Origin: a bacterium
Lineage (GTDB): Bacteria > UBP6 > UBA1177
Direction of reading: 5' to 3'
NCBI GenBank assembly: GCA_017963125.1
Contig: JAGCUA010000076.1
Coordinates: 1 to 64,000 of the forward strand
DNA length: 64,000 bases
Shown here: positions 19,398 through 49,292 of the stretch, piece after piece
How positions within the stretch are numbered: the first letter of the stretch is position 1
Layout of the letters: each line of letters begins with the position of its first letter
Position numbers and translations under genes: made by a program
The notes under the pieces: model-generated
What the model was told of the DNA's origin: nothing
Database searches by the model: none
The model's input: the letters and a program-made list of their open reading frames with translations, nothing else

Positions 19398-22300
19398 ATG
19401 AAACACTTTTTGGGACTTGATCTGGGCTCGGTCAGCCTTGACTGCGTCATACTCGATGAAAACAAAAATATCGTCTATAAAAGTTACCGCCGGACTAACG
19501 GAAGGCCTTTGAAAGCCGCATCGGAACTTTTTGCCGAAATGGAGCAGACTTGCGGAAATATCGAACTTTCCGGCGTATGCGTGACCGGTTCGGGCAAAGA
19601 ACTCATCGCCGATCAGTTCGGCTTCGATGTCACGAACGAAATAATCGCGCACGCCACCGCTGCATGGACGCTTTATCCCGATGTGAAATACATTTTCGAG
19701 ATCGGCGGTCAGGACTCGAAATTCATAACTGTAGGTAAAAGCAGCAGCGGAAAGCACTACCTCAAAGACCACGCTTTCAACGAACTCTGCGCTGCCGGAA
19801 CGGGCGCATTCCTCGACCAGCAGGCACAGAGACTTGGTCTTACCACGGAAGAACTGGGAAACATCGCTTTTTCGGCAAAAAACGTGCCGAGTGTAGCCGG
19901 AAGATGTTCTGTTTTCGCGAAATCGGACATGATCCACTTGCAGCAGAAAGGGGTCCCGAAAGATGAAATTGCGGCAGGACTCTGTTTTTCACTTGCAAGG
20001 AACTATCTTTCAGCGCTTTGCCGCGGCAAAATACCGGAGCCACCGATACTTTTTCAGGGAGGAGTCGCCGCAAACAAAGGTGTAGTGCGCGCTTTCAGAG
20101 AGATTCTGAATTTAAGCGAAAACGAGCTCATAATTCCCGAAAATTTCGGCGTAATGGGTGCTGTCGGAGCGGCACTTTCAGCTTTTGAAAGCAAAGAAAA
20201 CAGAGAATCATCCCTTTCCGAAATCGCGAAAAACTTCTCTCAAACATTTGATTTTATTGAAGAAAGCGATTTGAGTCCGATAAAATTCGAAAATGTCAGA
20301 GAAATTCAAAAAAATGAAAAACCGAAAGATTCCTCGGAACTTTTTCTGGGAATAGATGTCGGATCGGTCAGCACGAAAGGGGCTCTTCTCGACAAAAACA
20401 GAAACGTGATCGCCTCCGCATACCTTCCTACAGCGGGAAAGCCGGTAGAGGCGGTAGAAAAAGTCGTTGCGGAGATAAAAAAACAGGCTGGAGAAAACGT
20501 TGTTTTTGCTGAAACCGCAGTCACGGGATCAGGCAGACACCTTGCTGCAAAATTTCTGCAAACGTCTGATACTATTGACGAAATATCTGCTCAGTCTATT
20601 TCATGCGGCTACTTTTTCCCTGACTGTGACACGATCATCGAGATCGGCGGGCAGGATTCTAAATTCATAAAAATGGAGAAGGGCGCGATAAGCAATTTCA
20701 AGATGAACAGAGCGTGCGCCGCAGGGACGGGATCGTTTCTGGAAGAGCAGTCGAACCGTCTTAAAATCAGCATAAGAAACGATTTTGCCAAACTTGCATT
20801 CTCATCGCTTCATCCTGTGAGACTCGGCAGCAGATGCACTGTTTTTATGGATTCAGACCTTGTGCACCATCTTCAGCGCGGCGCGAAAACAGAGGATCTC
20901 TGCGCCGGCCTGGCCTATGCGACATGCGAGAACTACATCGAAAAAGTCGTCGGCTCGATGAAAGTCGGAGAAAGCATAGTTTTTCAGGGCGGAGTCGCAA
21001 AAAATAAAGCTGTTGCGGCAGTTTTTGCAAAACTTCTGGAAAAACCTGTGAGCATCCACCCCTACCCTGAAATTTCAGGAGCTATCGGAGCTGCGATTTC
21101 GGCAATGGAAGAGCATTCCGCAGGAAAAAAGGAAAAGGAAAAGACTAAAGCGACCGACGGTTTTGCGATCCGCGAAGAACTGCTTCTTTCCTACCTCAAA
21201 GAATATGAACCGAATGCAGAAACCCCTGACTGCAAAGGGGTCATAGCAATGCCGTTCGCCCTCAATATGACGGAGCATCTGCCTTTCTGGGCTGCATTTT
21301 TCGGTGAACTCAACTACGAACTCGTTCTTTCGCCGAAAACCGATAACGAAATAGTTCAATCGGGGCTTATCCGTGTTCCGGCTGAGTTCTGCTATCCGAT
21401 GAAAGTCCTTTTCGGACACGTCCAAACCCTTTTGGATAAAGGGTATAAGCGTATTTTCATCCCGCATTTACAATTTTTTGCGCCGCCTAAAAAAGGTTTG
21501 CAGTATGCCTGCCCCTACACCCAGGCTGCACCTTACGTCGTCAGGGAGAATCTTGAAACCGAGGCCGAGATCCTGACGCTTCAGTATCCGATCGCGGGAG
21601 AAGAAAAATTCTGGACCGAAAACACAGCGAAAACGCTCGGACTCACCTTTGAAGAAATCGACTGCGCCCTTGCAAAAGCAGGCGCTGCGCAGCGCGAATT
21701 TACGAACAAGTGCATCGCAAAAGGACGAGAGATAATAGAAGAAATCGAAAGAACAAACGGCCGCGGAGTCGTTATCCTGGGCAGACCTTACAACACGACA
21801 GACCGGCACATCAACTTAGATCTGTCGAAAAGGCTGAACGGCTTCGGAATAACGACGATCCCGGCAGATTTTCTTCCCACGGCCGAAGAAAAACTTCCTC
21901 CGATCTGGAGCAGAGTCCGCTGGGGATACGGCAGAAAGCTGATCCAGGCAGCAAGGATCCTGAAAAAGCACAAGAATTTAGGAGCAATAACTGTCACTAA
22001 TTTCGGCTGCGGCCCTGACGCTTTCATCGACCAGTACCTTGAATACGAACTTTCGGATACGCCGCATCTTGTTCTCGAATTTGACGACCACCGCGCCGAA
22101 GCAGGACTTGTGACGAGGATCGAAGCATTCTCGCGCAATTTCAAAATCGCAGAAAAAGAACGCTCGGTCGTTGACGGGATCGACCCCGGGAAACCAAAAA
22201 TTCCGCTTCGCGAATACACCTACTACATTCCGAGTTTCATGGATCACGCCCTTGCGATAAGCGGCGCGCTCAAGGCAAGCGGCTGCAAGGTCGTTCTTCT

Positions 22301-42333: not shown

Positions 42334-42521
42334 ACGGCACTTCGCGCGGGAACCTATATTTAAAAATAAGGAAAAGCCCTTGATTTTGATTTTTTTAAAG
42401 CTACAATTATTGGTTTTCGCTCCTTTTGAAAAAATGCCGATTTAATTAACATTTTTTCTAAGGAATTGTTTTTGCTTATATTTTAAGCTTTTTTGTTTGA
42501 TAATTTTCGGAGGTGAAAAAA

Positions 42522-45158
42522 ATGCCTGCTTTCAGAAAAACATTTACTCTTCTTCTGTCAATCTGTCTTTTTTCAATTCTTTTTGCTGAAAATGAACCGC
42601 CTGTCCTCGGCAAACTTATCGAAAGAAACGGTTTTCTTTACGATACTTTTTACTATCATGTAAGCGGCGAACCGCAGTATCTTCTGCAGAAATACGACGA
42701 GATCGCAATTCCTCATTCGGTAGACATGAACTCTCTGCGCGGTCTTGAATTCAACGGAATACAGATTTCCGACATGATCTCAGAGGTAACTTTCGATTTC
42801 CGTAATTTCAGAGCTTTCAGAATAAACCTTGACGAGTTCGACCGCAAAAACTGGATGCAGGTGCGCAATATCCTTGCGAAAAACGGCATTCCTGCATGGC
42901 CTGTCCTCACCTATCACGCGGAGAACTCCCCGATAGTCCTCGACGGCACGATGAACCTCACTTTCCCGAAATATATGGAAAAGGCTGAACAGGATAGGAT
43001 CCTTGAGCTTTACGGATTAAAAGTAGTTGAAATCGTTGATGAAGAAAATAATTTCTACACCGTTTCACTCAATCCTGGAACCGATCCTTTCGCGATCGCG
43101 AACTCACTCTACACCAGACAGTTCGTCCGCTGGGCTCAGCCGAACTGGCTCTGGCACTTCATTCCATTGTCTACGACTCCGAACGACCCCTATTTTTCAA
43201 AGCAGTGGCATCTCACCCAGATCAACGCACAGTATGCATGGGACACTGAAACAGGTGACAACAAAGATGTCAGGATCGCGATCGTCGATACCGGCGTTGA
43301 TTTGAATCACCCTGACCTGAATGTTCTTGCAGACCTCGGACATGACTACCTCGGCAACCTCGGCGGCGCACCGAACATTCCTACCTACGGCGGCAACACC
43401 CAGGGAGGCAACGATCACGAAGGCACCCCGCACGGAACATCGTGTGCAGGTCTTGCTGCTGCAAAAACGAACAACGGAATCGGCGTTTCGGCTTCATGCT
43501 GGGGCTGTCCGATCATTCCGATAAGACTTATTGCAGATGCCGGAACTTCATATTCGGCAGTACATGCGAGCGACAACTACAATGCCATGAAACACGCTGT
43601 TGACAGCGGCGCATGGGTCGTCAGCAACAGCTGGGGAATGCAGGATGTCGACAGAAACGGCAACTGCACCAATGTTCCCGCAGACAGCAACAGCTCGGAT
43701 GGCGTAAACTACGGCCGCACGAACGGAAGAGGCGGAAAAGGAACTATTTTCCTCTGGGCAGCCGGCAACTCACACTGCAACACAAACAAGAACAGCTTCC
43801 TCTCAAATGACGACAACCTTCTGGCGGTCAGCGCACTGGGTCAGTCAGGCTCGATGGAAAGTTATTCAAACTACGGTACAGCCATCGACATCGCTGCCGG
43901 TGCGGGAAAAAGCACGACCGACCTTCAGGGAAACACTTACGGCTACGCATGCAGTTCTTACGGATGCATGGGAAGCCTTGACACCAACGGCGACTACACA
44001 AACGGATTCAGCGGAACAAGTGCGGCAACACCTGTTGCGGCAGGCGCTGTAGCACTTATGCTCGCGGCAAAACCCGACATGACTTTCAATGAAGCTATGA
44101 ACTGCATCAAAGTTTCGGCATACAAACCTTCGACGACATGCTCCGAAGGCGCATGGACGACACAGAGCGACACATACGTCTCCAACGGACAGCATTCACC
44201 CTGCTTCGGCTACGGCATCGTTGACGCGAATGCAATGGTAGTCGGAGCGAAAAACGGAACATGCGGAGAATGCATCCCGACAGCTTCGATCGACGGCTGT
44301 TTCGGCAACTATTCCGGCAAAGACGACGACTGCGACGGTGTGATCGACAACAATTGCGCCAACGGCGCCGGCGGCAAGGGAAAAGCTGCTGATGCCTGCT
44401 CTACAGATTCCGAATGTGTCAACACGGCAGTCACCCCGAAATGCATTACCGACGAAGGCTGGACTGACGGCTACTGCTCGGCAGAATGCACCAAAAACAC
44501 CGACTGCTACAACGGAAACGGCAAAGTTGAATGCTATCAGGGCAAATGTATAGCAAAATGCTCATACAACACAGTCCGCTCGGGTTACGCATGTATCTCC
44601 GACAAGATCCTTCCGAAAGGGACCGAAGTCGTTGCAAGCTGCGGAAACGGCATCACTGAAGACGGCGAAAAATGCGACGGCGGAAACAAACTCTGCAAAC
44701 TTGTAGACGGCAGCTTTACCGGCGGCACCGCTATATGCAACCAGAACTGCACAGGCTACGACACGAGCACATGCGAAGGCGGAAGCGGAAACCTCTGCGG
44801 CAACCACAATGTTGACAGCGGTGAGATCTGCGACGGAGATACGATCCAGTGCAAACAGCTTGCAGGCGCCCCGAAAGGCGGTACGGCAAACTGTTCAAAA
44901 GACTGCATGAGCTGGGACAAATCGACCTGCTACGACGACGGATCGGGCTCAAATGACGGCGGAAACAACGGCGGTAACGACAGCGGAAACTCCGACAACA
45001 ACGAGAGCGGAGACAGCAAAGCAAACTGCGGAAACGGTTTCCTTGACGACGGCGAACAGTGCGATGACGGCAACAGAATCGACGGCGACGGCTGCTCGAA
45101 ATACTGCATGAAAGAAAGCGGAACGAAATCTTCGGGCTGCGCACTTACGGTCTTCTAA
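42522..45158 (+). CDS. Secreted subtilisin-like (S8) protease with Cys-rich repeats and SSGC C-terminus
   Basis: The 878-residue preproprotein starts at the ATG 42522 (MPAFRKTFTLLLSICLF signal), with GGAGG eight bases upstream; a GTG at 42513 overlaps that SD. The catalytic triad is Asp256 in IAIVDTGVDLNHPD, His304 in GTPHGTSCAGLAA and Ser500 in GFSGTSAATPVAAG. After the domain come Cys-rich modules, including CGNGITEDGEKCDGGN, CGNHNVDSGEICDGD and CGNGFLDDGEQCDDGN, of the myxobacterial Cys-rich repeat (DUF4215) type, with a Gly/Asn/Ser/Asp linker before the last. The end is ESGTKSSGCALTVF. It is very likely exported and surface-held. Confidence 0.93.
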   Translation: MPAFRKTFTLLLSICLFSILFAENEPPVLGKLIERNGFLYDTFYYHVSGEPQYLLQKYDEIAIPHSVDMNSLRGLEFNGIQISDMISEVTFDFRNFRAFRINLDEFDRKNWMQVRNILAKNGIPAWPVLTYHAENSPIVLDGTMNLTFPKYMEKAEQDRILELYGLKVVEIVDEENNFYTVSLNPGTDPFAIANSLYTRQFVRWAQPNWLWHFIPLSTTPNDPYFSKQWHLTQINAQYAWDTETGDNKDVRIAIVDTGVDLNHPDLNVLADLGHDYLGNLGGAPNIPTYGGNTQGGNDHEGTPHGTSCAGLAAAKTNNGIGVSASCWGCPIIPIRLIADAGTSYSAVHASDNYNAMKHAVDSGAWVVSNSWGMQDVDRNGNCTNVPADSNSSDGVNYGRTNGRGGKGTIFLWAAGNSHCNTNKNSFLSNDDNLLAVSALGQSGSMESYSNYGTAIDIAAGAGKSTTDLQGNTYGYACSSYGCMGSLDTNGDYTNGFSGTSAATPVAAGAVALMLAAKPDMTFNEAMNCIKVSAYKPSTTCSEGAWTTQSDTYVSNGQHSPCFGYGIVDANAMVVGAKNGTCGECIPTASIDGCFGNYSGKDDDCDGVIDNNCANGAGGKGKAADACSTDSECVNTAVTPKCITDEGWTDGYCSAECTKNTDCYNGNGKVECYQGKCIAKCSYNTVRSGYACISDKILPKGTEVVASCGNGITEDGEKCDGGNKLCKLVDGSFTGGTAICNQNCTGYDTSTCEGGSGNLCGNHNVDSGEICDGDTIQCKQLAGAPKGGTANCSKDCMSWDKSTCYDDGSGSNDGGNNGGNDSGNSDNNESGDSKANCGNGFLDDGEQCDDGNRIDGDGCSKYCMKESGTKSSGCALTVF

Positions 45159-45212: not shown

Positions 45213-46871
45213 ATGAAATTCAGAAGATCCCACATTATCGTCTTTTTGTCTGTACTATTCATTTTCGCAGCATGTTCGGACAGCAAAAAAAACGAAGATG
45301 AAACAACCGGTGACCAGGACAGCTATTCCGACAGCGACGCATCCGGCGATGCGGAACTTCCCGACGCAGATTCTGATCCGCATGAAGAAACGGAACCGGA
45401 CGCAGACAACGCCGAAGAGCCGGAAGAAAGAACCAAAAGCCCGGACTTCGAAGACCTTGAATGCGGTCATTCTTTCGGCGACTATGCATGCGACTTCACT
45501 CTGCCGACAGATTCCGGAGACTGGAATTTCGCCGAAAACTACTCAAAAAACGACAACTATATCCTTGTGTTCTACCGCAGCATGAACACGACGAGCTCAA
45601 AAATATGGGGCACATCACTCTACAATCTCTTCGACAAAGCACCTGAAAATATTCACTATTTTTTCATTGTAGACTCAGGGAAAAGCGATGTCACGGAAGA
45701 AAAGATCCAGACAATAAAAGCTTCAGTCAAGGATGCATACGATGTAGTCGGAAACGAAAAGATTTTCAAAAATATGCACATTGTCACCAAACCAGCATCC
45801 GAAGCCGATCCGTGGATCGCCGAACTTATTGAAAACAACAAATCCGACTTTTTCTTCGGTATCGACAGGGAACGCAGGATCAGAAAAGGCGGATCGATGT
45901 CCGGACTTGACGACATATACAAAGAGGCTGAATATTACGATTATGAGAAGAAAATTTCCGGCTTCATTGAAGAAAACGCTTCCGCATCCACGGTTTTCAA
46001 AGGACTTGAAGGAGTTCCTTTTGAAGAAGAAGGGTGGACAAAAAACATCGATTTCGAAATAGATTTCAAGGGACTTTCCGAAAACGGCAGGCTTTACATC
46101 ATGCTTGAGCAGATATGCAGCGAGCCGAAAAAATGCGAATGGGACAGACTTGAAAGACTTTTTCTCTGCGATGAAACCGGAGAAAAATGCGAAACGGAAA
46201 CCGGCCGCTGGATAACGACTTACGGCAGAAGCGGAAAGTGGCTGACCGACATCACTCCGCTTAAACCGATGTTTGAAAAAGACGGAAAATACAAATTCAG
46301 ATTCACCGTTGACGGCGACTACTACGTCAACAACCTCGATTTTATTTTTGTAAAAGAGGCTGAAACAGCAGGGAATGCTCTCGTTCCGCTCTTCAACCAG
46401 CGCGAGCAGTTCGACGAAAACTACAATTCGCATTTTGAGCCGATGAAAATCGAAATATCCGGCGATATCAAAAAAGCTAAAATCTTCGCATACATCACTG
46501 GTCACGGCAATGCCTCGGAAGAAGCCAACTGTGCCGAATTCTGTCAGTTTGAATCGGTCTTCACGGTAAACGGAAAAGATTTCAAAATCCGCTTTGACAA
46601 GGCCGGAACAACTGACGGTTGTTTTGAAGAGGTCAGAAACGGCGTCGTTCCCAACCAGTACGGAACATGGCCCTACGGCCGTGCCGGCTGGTGCCCCGGC
46701 AAAAACGTAACGCTTCTTGAAGCCGATGTTTCGGAAGTGCTTGCCAGCGGCGAAAACGTTTTTTCTTATGCCGCATACCTTGACGGGAAAGTTTATGTCC
46801 CGGTAGTCACGAACGAAAACGGATACCGCGCAGAAATCTATCTTTCAAGCTTCCTCGCACTTTACAAATAA
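45213..46871 (+). CDS. PNGase F-like peptide N-glycosidase lipoprotein
   Basis: The 552-residue protein has a lipobox FIFAAC (residues 16-21) and an acidic linker to about residue 75. A thioredoxin-like region follows (about 95-260: NYILVFYRSMN, YFFIVDSGKSDVTEEKI). The last ~280 residues match the two jelly-roll domains of PNGase F: WTKNIDFEIDF, RWITTYGRSGKWLTDITP, then GHGNASEEANCAEFC, FTVNGKDF, YGTWPYGRAGWCPGKNV and ANGENVF-like SGENVFSYAAYLDG. PNGase F removes N-glycans from Asn of glycoproteins as intact glycans. Two protease genes lie upstream, which fits glycoprotein digestion. No SSGC tag; anchoring is N-terminal. Catalytic acid residues could not be placed with certainty. Confidence 0.82.
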   Translation: MKFRRSHIIVFLSVLFIFAACSDSKKNEDETTGDQDSYSDSDASGDAELPDADSDPHEETEPDADNAEEPEERTKSPDFEDLECGHSFGDYACDFTLPTDSGDWNFAENYSKNDNYILVFYRSMNTTSSKIWGTSLYNLFDKAPENIHYFFIVDSGKSDVTEEKIQTIKASVKDAYDVVGNEKIFKNMHIVTKPASEADPWIAELIENNKSDFFFGIDRERRIRKGGSMSGLDDIYKEAEYYDYEKKISGFIEENASASTVFKGLEGVPFEEEGWTKNIDFEIDFKGLSENGRLYIMLEQICSEPKKCEWDRLERLFLCDETGEKCETETGRWITTYGRSGKWLTDITPLKPMFEKDGKYKFRFTVDGDYYVNNLDFIFVKEAETAGNALVPLFNQREQFDENYNSHFEPMKIEISGDIKKAKIFAYITGHGNASEEANCAEFCQFESVFTVNGKDFKIRFDKAGTTDGCFEEVRNGVVPNQYGTWPYGRAGWCPGKNVTLLEADVSEVLASGENVFSYAAYLDGKVYVPVVTNENGYRAEIYLSSFLALYK

Positions 46872-46992
46872 AACATTATTTCCCGACTTTATTTGAGCCG
46901 CTGTATTTTTGTTTTAAACACTCTGAAAAGTTTTTGAATAAAAAGTCCGGCACAATTTTTGCTTTATTGCGGCGTATTTGATCTTTTTCAAT

Positions 46993-47156
46993 TGATAACG
47001 GCTGTCAGTTTCCGGTCAACACACATTTGAAAAACTAATCTACACCAACACTACAATTTATTTCAAGCGCCGAAAAGGCTTCAAATCCAGAGCTCGTCAC
47101 ATTTCAGGCAGCCGTTATCATCATCCTGACAGAGCCCCTTCGGGGGCATTTTTTTT
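46993..47156 (+). ncRNA. Candidate structured RNA with long closing stem and terminator
   Basis: In the 350-base spacer after the PNGase gene, GATAACGGCTG (46994-47004) pairs perfectly with CAGCCGTTATC (47109-47119). The stem extends by an outer T-A (46993/47120) and inner wobble and C-G pairs. Inside, ATTTGAA (47025-47031) can pair with TTCAAAT (47080-47086), and GCC-GAAAA-GGC (47069-47079) gives a small hairpin. An intrinsic terminator follows after 14 bases. It could be an independent small RNA or a structured 3' UTR. It does not match any family I can name. Confidence 0.5.
47134..47156 (+). terminator. Intrinsic terminator
   Basis: GCCCC-TTCG-GGGGC (47134-47147) with a stable UUCG-type loop, then A and eight T residues. 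It ends the plus-strand transcript of the candidate RNA and/or the PNGase gene, facing the convergent collagen-like genes. Confidence 0.9.
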
Positions 47157-47222
47157 GCACTAAGGCTTTCAGACAGAAAACCGAAACATATTGAAAATAT
47201 TCAAGAAAAAAGTTTTTTTCGA

Positions 47223-48161
47223 TTAGAAGAGCGTGAGCGAGCAGCCTGAACTTGCCGCCTGTTCGCTTGCTTCGACGGCATCTTCGCCGTTGCAGATATA
47301 GTATTTGTTTTTAACTTCGCTCTCGTCGAGGACACCGTTTCTGTCCTTGTCGAGACCGCTCATAAACTTTTTACCGCCGTTTTCGCAGTTGTCTCCGGCC
47401 GCCTCATCAACAATGCTTACAAGCGAATCAAAACCGTCGGATCCTGCTGCGCCCTGTTCTCCGGCGATACCAGGCTCCCCCTGTTCACCTTTGTCGCCGC
47501 GCTCGCCTTTTGCACCGTCTGCACCGTCTTTTCCGTCTGTTCCGGCGACACCCGGTCTGCCCTGCTCGCCTTTGTCGCCCTGTTCGCTGGTTCCGTCGCA
47601 TACGTAATGGACAGAGATCTCGGAATCTTCAAAAATGTCGTTACCGTTTGCATCGAAGCGTGTTTCGATCTTTGAACCGCCGGAAGGACAGTTTTCTCCC
47701 TCAGGCTCTCCGGTTACCACGAATTCCGTAACCTTTCCTTCCGAACCGTTCTGTCCGTTAGCTGCAGCGGCGTCTTCCATAGTACTGGCACCGTTATCAC
47801 CCGGTTCACCGTAGCAGAGCGCGACTTCCGAGGCATACCCGTCATCGATATTCCCGTCGGAATCACAGTCTACACCGCTTGTCACTACAACTCCGTAACC
47901 AGTGGAACAGGATGATGCAGCCTGAACTTTAAAAACGGTATCACAGCCGTTACTGCCGTTACAGATATAGGCCTGAGATCTGAGCTCACCCTTTTCGATA
48001 TCGATAGTTCCGCTGGAATCATCGTCCTGGCCGACAACGACAAGAAGACCGCCGTTCGGGCAATGCGAATCACCGGGACCGAGCGGAGTCGTTTCAACTC
48101 TCTGATACGCAGCGAGCGGCATAAAACCTAAAAATAAAAAAAGCAGAAATAGTTTTTTCAT
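47223..48161 (-). CDS. Secreted collagen-like protein with DUF7151-type repeats and SSGC C-terminus
   Basis: The 312-residue protein has a signal peptide (MKKLFLLFLFLGFMPLAA). It then has repeats of the form CPxGG-x-G-D-x-N-G-x-L-x-x-x-E-V-x-x-YxCNG (for example CENGGKKFMSGLDKDRNGVL). These contain a Cys pair and a calcium-loop-like DxNG, as in DUF7151. Between them lies a Gly-Xaa-Yaa collagen-like tract (about 195-250: GDKGEQGRPGVAG, GAKGERGDKGEQG). It ends AASSGCSLTLF. AGGAGG precedes the ATG. It is probably a surface fibre or adhesin and is the second gene of a pair with a paralogue. Confidence 0.82.
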   Translation of the reverse strand: MKKLFLLFLFLGFMPLAAYQRVETTPLGPGDSHCPNGGLLVVVGQDDDSSGTIDIEKGELRSQAYICNGSNGCDTVFKVQAASSCSTGYGVVVTSGVDCDSDGNIDDGYASEVALCYGEPGDNGASTMEDAAAANGQNGSEGKVTEFVVTGEPEGENCPSGGSKIETRFDANGNDIFEDSEISVHYVCDGTSEQGDKGEQGRPGVAGTDGKDGADGAKGERGDKGEQGEPGIAGEQGAAGSDGFDSLVSIVDEAAGDNCENGGKKFMSGLDKDRNGVLDESEVKNKYYICNGEDAVEASEQAASSGCSLTLF

Positions 48162-48170
48162 AACTGCCTC

Positions 48171-49292
48171 CTAGCTGCGTGCGAATCTTACGGCAACAAA
48201 AGCACAGATCATTGATACTATTGCCAAAACAGCCAGCATAACATTATCATCTTCATCAACTGCACTTAGCGAACAGCCTGTGGACGAGGAAGTCAGTCCT
48301 GCCTCTTCCGCATCACGTCCGTTGCAGACATAGTAAATACTTTCGGCGTCGATTTCATCTTCGTCCAGTGCGCCGTTGCCGTTTGCATCAAGACCGAGCT
48401 CGATTTTTTTGCCGCCGGCTGCACAGTTTTCGCCTGCCGGTTCGTCAACTACCGAAACAAGCGATGTCGCACCGTTTTTACCGGCTTCACCTGTTGCTCC
48501 GGTTTTACCCTGTTCGCCCTGATCGCCTTTTTCGCCCTGATCGCCTTTTTCACCCTGAGCACCATCTTTGCCGTCAGCTCCGTTTGCGCCCGGCTCACCC
48601 TGATCGCCTTTCTGCCCCTGGTTGCCTTTAATGCCGTCTTTGCCGTTGCAGACATACTGCGTGTCGTCAATTTCGTCGTCGTCAAGAACGCCGTCGCCGT
48701 TATCATCGACACCGACTTCGATCTTTATGCCGGTACTTTTCGTACAGTTGTCTCCTTTCGGTTCGTCCGAAACTTTCGTGAGCGCATCGTGACCGTCAGC
48801 ACCTTTTCCGCCGTTGCAGACATATTTAGTCTGAGTCTGATCCACTTCGGAATCATCAAGGTCTCCCTCTCCGCTCGAGTCAAGACCGACTTCGATCTTG
48901 ATACCGCCGTTCGGGCACACCGCCTCAAGATCCTCTCCTTCAGCGGAAGTTCTCGAAAGAGCGTTCTGACCGTCTGCTCCGTTGCAGACATAGCTCGAAG
49001 TTGTGCCGACAGTGATTTTGATACCTCCGGCATCTCCGCACATAGTACCTGCATCACTTATCGAAACCCCTGTAGCACCGTTGCTGCCGTTACAGACATA
49101 CTGAGTGCTCTCGATTTCGCTTTCGTCCAGATCGCCATTACCGTTATCATCATCGCCGACATCGATCCTGGCACCGCCGTTCGGGCAGTTGGCACCTTCA
49201 CCTTCTGTAGAAACATTTACAAGCGTGTCGGTAGCCGAAAGAGCCCCCGCAAACAGAAAACTTAAAATAACAATAAAGGTTGTTTTTTTCAT
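48171..49292 (-). CDS. Collagen-like DUF7151-type surface protein with MYXO-CTERM-like anchor
   Basis: The 373-residue paralogue has a signal peptide (MKKTTFIVILSFLFAGALSA), about five DUF7151-type repeats (CPNGGARIDVGDDDNGNGDL, CPNGGIKIEVGLDSSGEGDL, CAAGGKKIELGLDANGNGAL) and a Gly-Xaa-Yaa tract near 220-270 (GEKGDQGEKGDQGEQG). Its C-terminus is SSSTGCSLSAVDED followed by a ~20-residue transmembrane helix and a basic RFARS tail. That is the Cys + helix + Arg layout of MYXO-CTERM signals, which are cleaved by myxosortase. GAGGAG precedes the ATG. The pair probably forms one transcript (nine-base gap). Confidence 0.82.
   Translation of the reverse strand: MKKTTFIVILSFLFAGALSATDTLVNVSTEGEGANCPNGGARIDVGDDDNGNGDLDESEIESTQYVCNGSNGATGVSISDAGTMCGDAGGIKITVGTTSSYVCNGADGQNALSRTSAEGEDLEAVCPNGGIKIEVGLDSSGEGDLDDSEVDQTQTKYVCNGGKGADGHDALTKVSDEPKGDNCTKSTGIKIEVGVDDNGDGVLDDDEIDDTQYVCNGKDGIKGNQGQKGDQGEPGANGADGKDGAQGEKGDQGEKGDQGEQGKTGATGEAGKNGATSLVSVVDEPAGENCAAGGKKIELGLDANGNGALDEDEIDAESIYYVCNGRDAEEAGLTSSSTGCSLSAVDEDDNVMLAVLAIVSMICAFVAVRFARS

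Follow-up and report, generated by a model that had tools for sequence, protein, structure and literature searches.

A conserved probable small RNA gene with a predicted sigma-54 promoter beside a PNGase-F-like gene in the candidate phylum UBP6

The locus and its neighbours

The DNA analysed here is a stretch of 64,000 nucleotides (the window) from an uncultured gut bacterium of the candidate phylum UBP6, also known as Candidatus Asafiota (PMC11382960). A predicted small RNA gene sits in the spacer between two convergent genes. This spacer had been described as gene-free on the plus strand, and the search likewise recognised no gene on that strand between 46871 and 47223. The features of the region are listed below.

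45213 to 46871, plus strand: lipoprotein with a PNGase F C-terminal domain (PF09113, E = 8.5e-23; synteny), the upstream neighbour, given as context and lying outside the RNA
46945 to 46966, plus strand: predicted sigma-54 (-24/-12) promoter GTCCGGCACAATTTTTGCTTTA, with GG at 46949-46950 and GC at 46961-46962
46974 to 47156, plus strand: predicted primary transcript of ~183 nt, as delimited by promoter and terminator
46993 to 47006, plus strand: 5' arm of the closing stem P1 (folding; compensatory changes)
47013 to 47022, plus strand: conserved segment CGGTCAACAC within P1, with GRTCAA in all eight homologues (alignment; congener identity 80-90%)
47026 to 47067, plus strand: stem P2 of genus g1, TTTGAAA (47026-47032) with TTTCAAG (47061-47067), its loop containing the conserved motif (minimum-energy folds)
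47039 to 47059, plus strand: most conserved unpaired segment TCTACACCAACACTACAATTT, with the core ACACCAACACT (alignment; predicted single-stranded)
47069 to 47079, plus strand: small conserved hairpin P3, GCC-GAAAA-GGC, its three pairs invariant in seven of seven sequences
47107 to 47120, plus strand: 3' arm of P1 (folding; compensatory changes)
47134 to 47156, plus strand: intrinsic terminator GCCCC-TTCG-GGGGC-A-T8 (ATTTTTTTT tail), conserved in seven homologues including that of the window
ending at 47223, minus strand: collagen-like/DUF7151 protein, the convergent downstream neighbour

The PNGase-F-like lipoprotein is present in all 19 genomes of the family, with relatives in Myxococcales MAGs and marine Poseidoniales archaea. 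Across the spacer, the minus strand of 47223-49292 encodes two adjoining secreted-looking proteins, each composed of collagen-like GXX repeats and three to four DUF7151 stretches. One of these proteins has the C-terminus SSGCSLTLF and a subtilisin-like protease close by (42513-45158) has SSGCALTVF, endings that suggest a common sorting or processing signal. Further along the plus strand, 52224-52284 matches the cobalamin riboswitch model RF00174 with 34.8 bits (gathering threshold 31.5) over model positions 47-167 of 189. A search for a plasmid or phage origin of the element gave no match.

Predicted promoter, fold and conserved interior

The promoter was missing from the first-pass annotation of this DNA. 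The pattern GGCAC-N5-TTGC (46949-46962 here) precedes the stem in all eight homologous spacers, as TGGCAC in six of them, and is a textbook fit to the sigma-54 -24/-12 consensus. Promoters of this class have the form GG-N10-TGC (PMC8657755). As a nine-base pattern also arises by chance, the weight rests on its conserved position in eight genomes. A second exact match, at 19875-19888 on the minus strand, is probably fortuitous, since it lies antisense within a 1329-aa reading frame.

Identity to the congeners is 73-82% for the promoter, against 34-41% for the adjoining upstream spacer, and reaches 79-89% between the +1 position and the stem; overall, the promoter, the initial transcribed nucleotides, the stem, the motif and the terminator are highly conserved, and the linkers and the sequence ahead of the promoter show low identity. 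The start was placed at about 46974, 12 nt past the GC of the -12 element. The terminator reported earlier, GCCCC-TTCG-GGGGC-T8, was found at 47134-47156 and is kept in seven of the eight homologues, the contig of the eighth (G004) stopping short of it.

A perfect closing stem of 11 bp around 104 bases had also been proposed. The stem and its spacing stand, and the length needs correction: the inverted repeat GATAACGGCTG/CAGCCGTTATC pairs perfectly over 12 bp (46993-47004 against 47109-47120, the arms separated by 104 nt), and folding extends it inward by U.G and C-G to 14 pairs. On the plus strand, 46985-47165 folds more stably than 199 of 200 dinucleotide shuffles (z = -3.2), whereas the minus strand of the element is unremarkable against its shuffles (z = -1.05), and the cores of all seven homologues examined exceed theirs (z from -2.0 to -4.6).

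RNAalifold recovered P1 with no input structure and placed double changes in five of 12 predicted pairs, two of the five lying in the small internal hairpin. For the structure named above, the seven sequences carry double changes in seven pairs, the covariation score of 0.280 exceeds the 0.195 +/- 0.027 of shuffled alignments (only one of 500 shuffles matches it) and sliding the partners lowers the paired cells from 83% to 32-49%, controls that are supportive rather than conclusive because they rest on seven related sequences. The outer part of P1 varies by genus, with GAG/CUC or GGAAG/CUUCC pairs at this place in other genera, which the alignment registers poorly. Homologues without compensatory changes in the closing stem had been named as the finding that would speak against a structured RNA; such changes are present in the other genera, and because the stem is kept through compensatory substitution there, the inverted repeat is more than a chance occurrence.

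Within the closing stem, the two weaker internal stems noted earlier were both recovered, one being the conserved 3-bp GCC/GGC hairpin (P3) and the other varying between genera. A pair flanking P3 is U-A in G003, C-G in G001 and absent in the other five of seven sequences. The pairing of P2 was taken from the minimum-energy folds of four genus-g1 sequences; in the other genera a different small hairpin, of the TGCGGAAACGCA type, precedes the motif instead. The core ACACCAACACT is present in all eight homologues across four genera, with one base different in G015, and is a natural candidate for the active part of the RNA; the surrounding segment, 47039-47059, is proposed as a candidate seed or protein-binding site on the strength of its conservation and predicted openness. 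No open reading frame shared among the predicted transcripts was found, and a coding RNA was rejected, the longest start-to-stop frames being 7-26 aa and not common to the genera.

Distribution and sigma-54 machinery

Among the 19 genomes of the same family, a BLAST search with the spacer picked up three congeners that have a syntenic copy (70-76% identity); one further hit, short and in G017, was discounted as lying inside an unrelated coding region. Inspection of the regions 3' of all PNGase orthologues added four further genomes, from three other genera, so that the element lies just 3' of the PNGase-F-like gene, as a single copy, in eight of 28 genomes of the phylum and in four genera. The covariance model R1, which describes the core, has exactly one match in each of these eight genomes (E from 4e-22 to 2e-6) and none elsewhere, with the qualification that it was trained on seven of the eight homologues and that the incomplete copy in G004 (E = 2e-6) is its sole independent hit. 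A scan of the region with the Rfam 15 covariance models gave nothing at the gathering threshold, with the best sub-threshold matches at chance level, and no small RNA from this lineage turned up in the literature searched.

Absence from 11 of 15 congeners, some with incomplete genomes, shows the RNA to be dispensable, and the PNGase gene is retained without the element in 11 genomes. In the PNGase tree, which is built from one gene and rooted at the midpoint, carriers occur in both deep branches and the carrier label needs at least three changes, a pattern that fits an ancestral RNA with repeated loss. The RNA appears to go back to the ancestor of the family and to have disappeared from several congeners.

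Both RpoN (PF04552) and sigma-54 activators (PF00158) are encoded in all 19 family genomes, with four such activators in the genome of the window. Hfq (PF17209) was detected in none of the 19, by a search that was positive in the controls E. coli, B. subtilis and others. One activator of ~668 aa, with a GAF-AAA+-Fis (GAF-AAA+-HTH) architecture, occurs in six of the eight RNA carriers (L135, L136, L137, L139, L141 and L143, full-length orthologues of 54-82% identity) and is missing from all 11 non-carriers, which were compared by open-frame length and BLAST of the returned loci rather than activator by activator. The co-occurrence has a Fisher p of 0.001 overall and 0.057 within the genus, values to be read as partly shared ancestry and as an association spotted after viewing the table. 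This activator was not detected in the carriers G015 and G000, the latter being the window's own genome, which weakens the link; the window's contig, including its first 64 kb, likewise gave no match, and collinearity between the window and G008 is limited to the block between positions 39 and 60 kb. The protein is a lead only as regulator of the RNA. A search for an enhancer motif between stop codon and promoter returned k-mers that were mostly A-rich words and not clearly above shuffles.

Interpretation and known counterparts

The position of the conserved sigma-54 promoter, after the stop codon of PNGase and ahead of the stem, favours an independent RNA over a 3' UTR, and the first-pass suggestion of an independent small RNA is now well supported by that promoter and by the covarying closing stem. 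We are highly confident that the sequence marks a conserved RNA gene with its own promoter. With promoter and terminator of its own, conservation in four genera and no Rfam family, it is very probably a real and undescribed regulatory RNA.

In the mechanism proposed, RNA polymerase with sigma-54 would start at about 46974 once an enhancer-binding protein, for which the GAF-AAA+-Fis protein is a candidate, has been activated, and would stop at the terminator at 47156. The long closing stem P1 would then enclose a mostly open interior exposing CACCAACACT, and the exposed CACCAACAC segment may pair in trans with target mRNAs without Hfq or, alternatively, sequester an RNA-binding protein. Pairing in trans is the most likely function by analogy with other small RNAs. 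We infer transcription, activator, trans pairing and targets alike from sequence, and put the probability of an independent sigma-54-driven regulatory RNA of ~183 nt, trans action included, at roughly 0.7; seed and activator are where this full reading is least secure. A more specific version, in which a UBP6-specific sigma-54 riboregulator pairs its CACCAACAC segment with mRNAs without Hfq, belongs to the regulon of the GAF activator and was lost jointly with it in part of the genus, is tentative and somewhat doubtful. When the eight carriers were searched for exact complements of the motif, no target common to them was found, the AGTGTTGGTG sites being mostly antisense or within coding regions. 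One site is common to the four genus-g1 genomes and was rejected as a sense target because it lies antisense within an aminotransferase-like gene; another, in G004 only, lies 32 nt 5' of a possible start codon.

The position of the element, directly 3' of the PNGase gene and on the same strand in all eight carriers, also invites a reading as a promoterless structured 3' UTR of the PNGase mRNA, acting as a stability or processing element or giving rise to a 3'-UTR-derived small RNA, and read-through from PNGase would stop at the identical terminator. Such a reading is improbable in view of the sigma-54 promoter between stop codon and stem in all eight, the unconserved stop-to-promoter interval (23-157 nt among carriers, 34-41% identity) and the persistence of the PNGase gene in the 11 genomes without the element; read-through is nevertheless a possible extra source of the RNA. 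An inverted repeat around a short spacer that is missing from many relatives could equally describe a mobile or repeated element of the miniature inverted-repeat type. That the element is single-copy, holds the same location in four genera, has a one-sided promoter and terminator, and shows compensatory changes and strand-specific folding leaves this explanation a negligible chance.

A third alternative keeps sigma-54 control, as for CrcZ (PMC8657755), and makes the RNA a protein sponge, comparable to CrcZ in its action on Hfq/Crc, that binds a CA-motif protein through ACAACACCAACAC. The CA-rich nature of the conserved unpaired segment and the lack of a shared mRNA target in the search agree with it, yet the search for Hfq was negative in all 19 family genomes, the motif occurs once instead of as a series of repeats, and no candidate protein was identified, which together make a sponge rather unlikely.

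In its length, long-range closing stem and open interior the element resembles 6S RNA (RF00013). It matches no 6S model, however, and 6S identity was rejected, as a better sub-threshold candidate exists elsewhere in the genome, on a different contig. That candidate, L013 (G000:C34:186375-186533), is a possible 6S RNA of the window's genome, at 36 bits against an Rfam gathering threshold of 46.4. Qrr small RNAs act together with Hfq, commonly exist in several copies and fold differently, whereas the UBP6 RNA is single-copy, has no Rfam match and occurs in hosts in which Hfq was not detected. The likeness to Qrr is that of a small RNA with a sigma-54 promoter, predicted here and described for Vibrio (PMC10162802).

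The myxobacterial small RNA Pxr is intergenic, has a predicted sigma-54 promoter and occurs in hosts without Hfq (PMC5568312, PMC5684412), and the UBP6 RNA shares these traits, with Hfq not detected. By description rather than by sequence comparison, Pxr is ~108 nt long with three stem-loops and adjoins the activator gene pxrR (nla19); the UBP6 RNA, by contrast, is ~183 nt with one long closing stem and internal hairpins in place of three stem-loops, and its neighbour is PNGase rather than a sigma-54 activator gene directly upstream. Predicted sigma-54 control is shared with CrcZ, CrcX and CrcY as well, and the CA-rich unpaired motif recalls the motifs of CrcZ. These Pseudomonas RNAs are controlled by sigma-54 and the enhancer-binding protein CbrB (PMC8657755), and CrcZ antagonises Hfq/Crc (PMC8657755; PMC4063720). 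The UBP6 RNA differs in its single motif, the absence of an Rfam match and the lack of detectable Hfq (PF17209 in 0 of 19 genomes), the partner of a CrcZ-type sponge.

A promoter of the -24/-12 type fixed upstream, RpoN and enhancer-binding proteins in the hosts, a covarying structure and a terminator are the marks of a sigma-54-dependent small RNA, and all appear to be present in these sequences. To our knowledge, judged unsystematically, documentation of sigma-54-driven small RNAs seems sparse for lineages that lie outside the proteobacteria and myxobacteria and in which Hfq is not detectable. The element is apparently a real small RNA family that has gone undescribed. An uncultured phylum thereby gains a family of small RNAs that is strongly backed by comparative evidence and for which promoter class, start, end and structure are all predicted.
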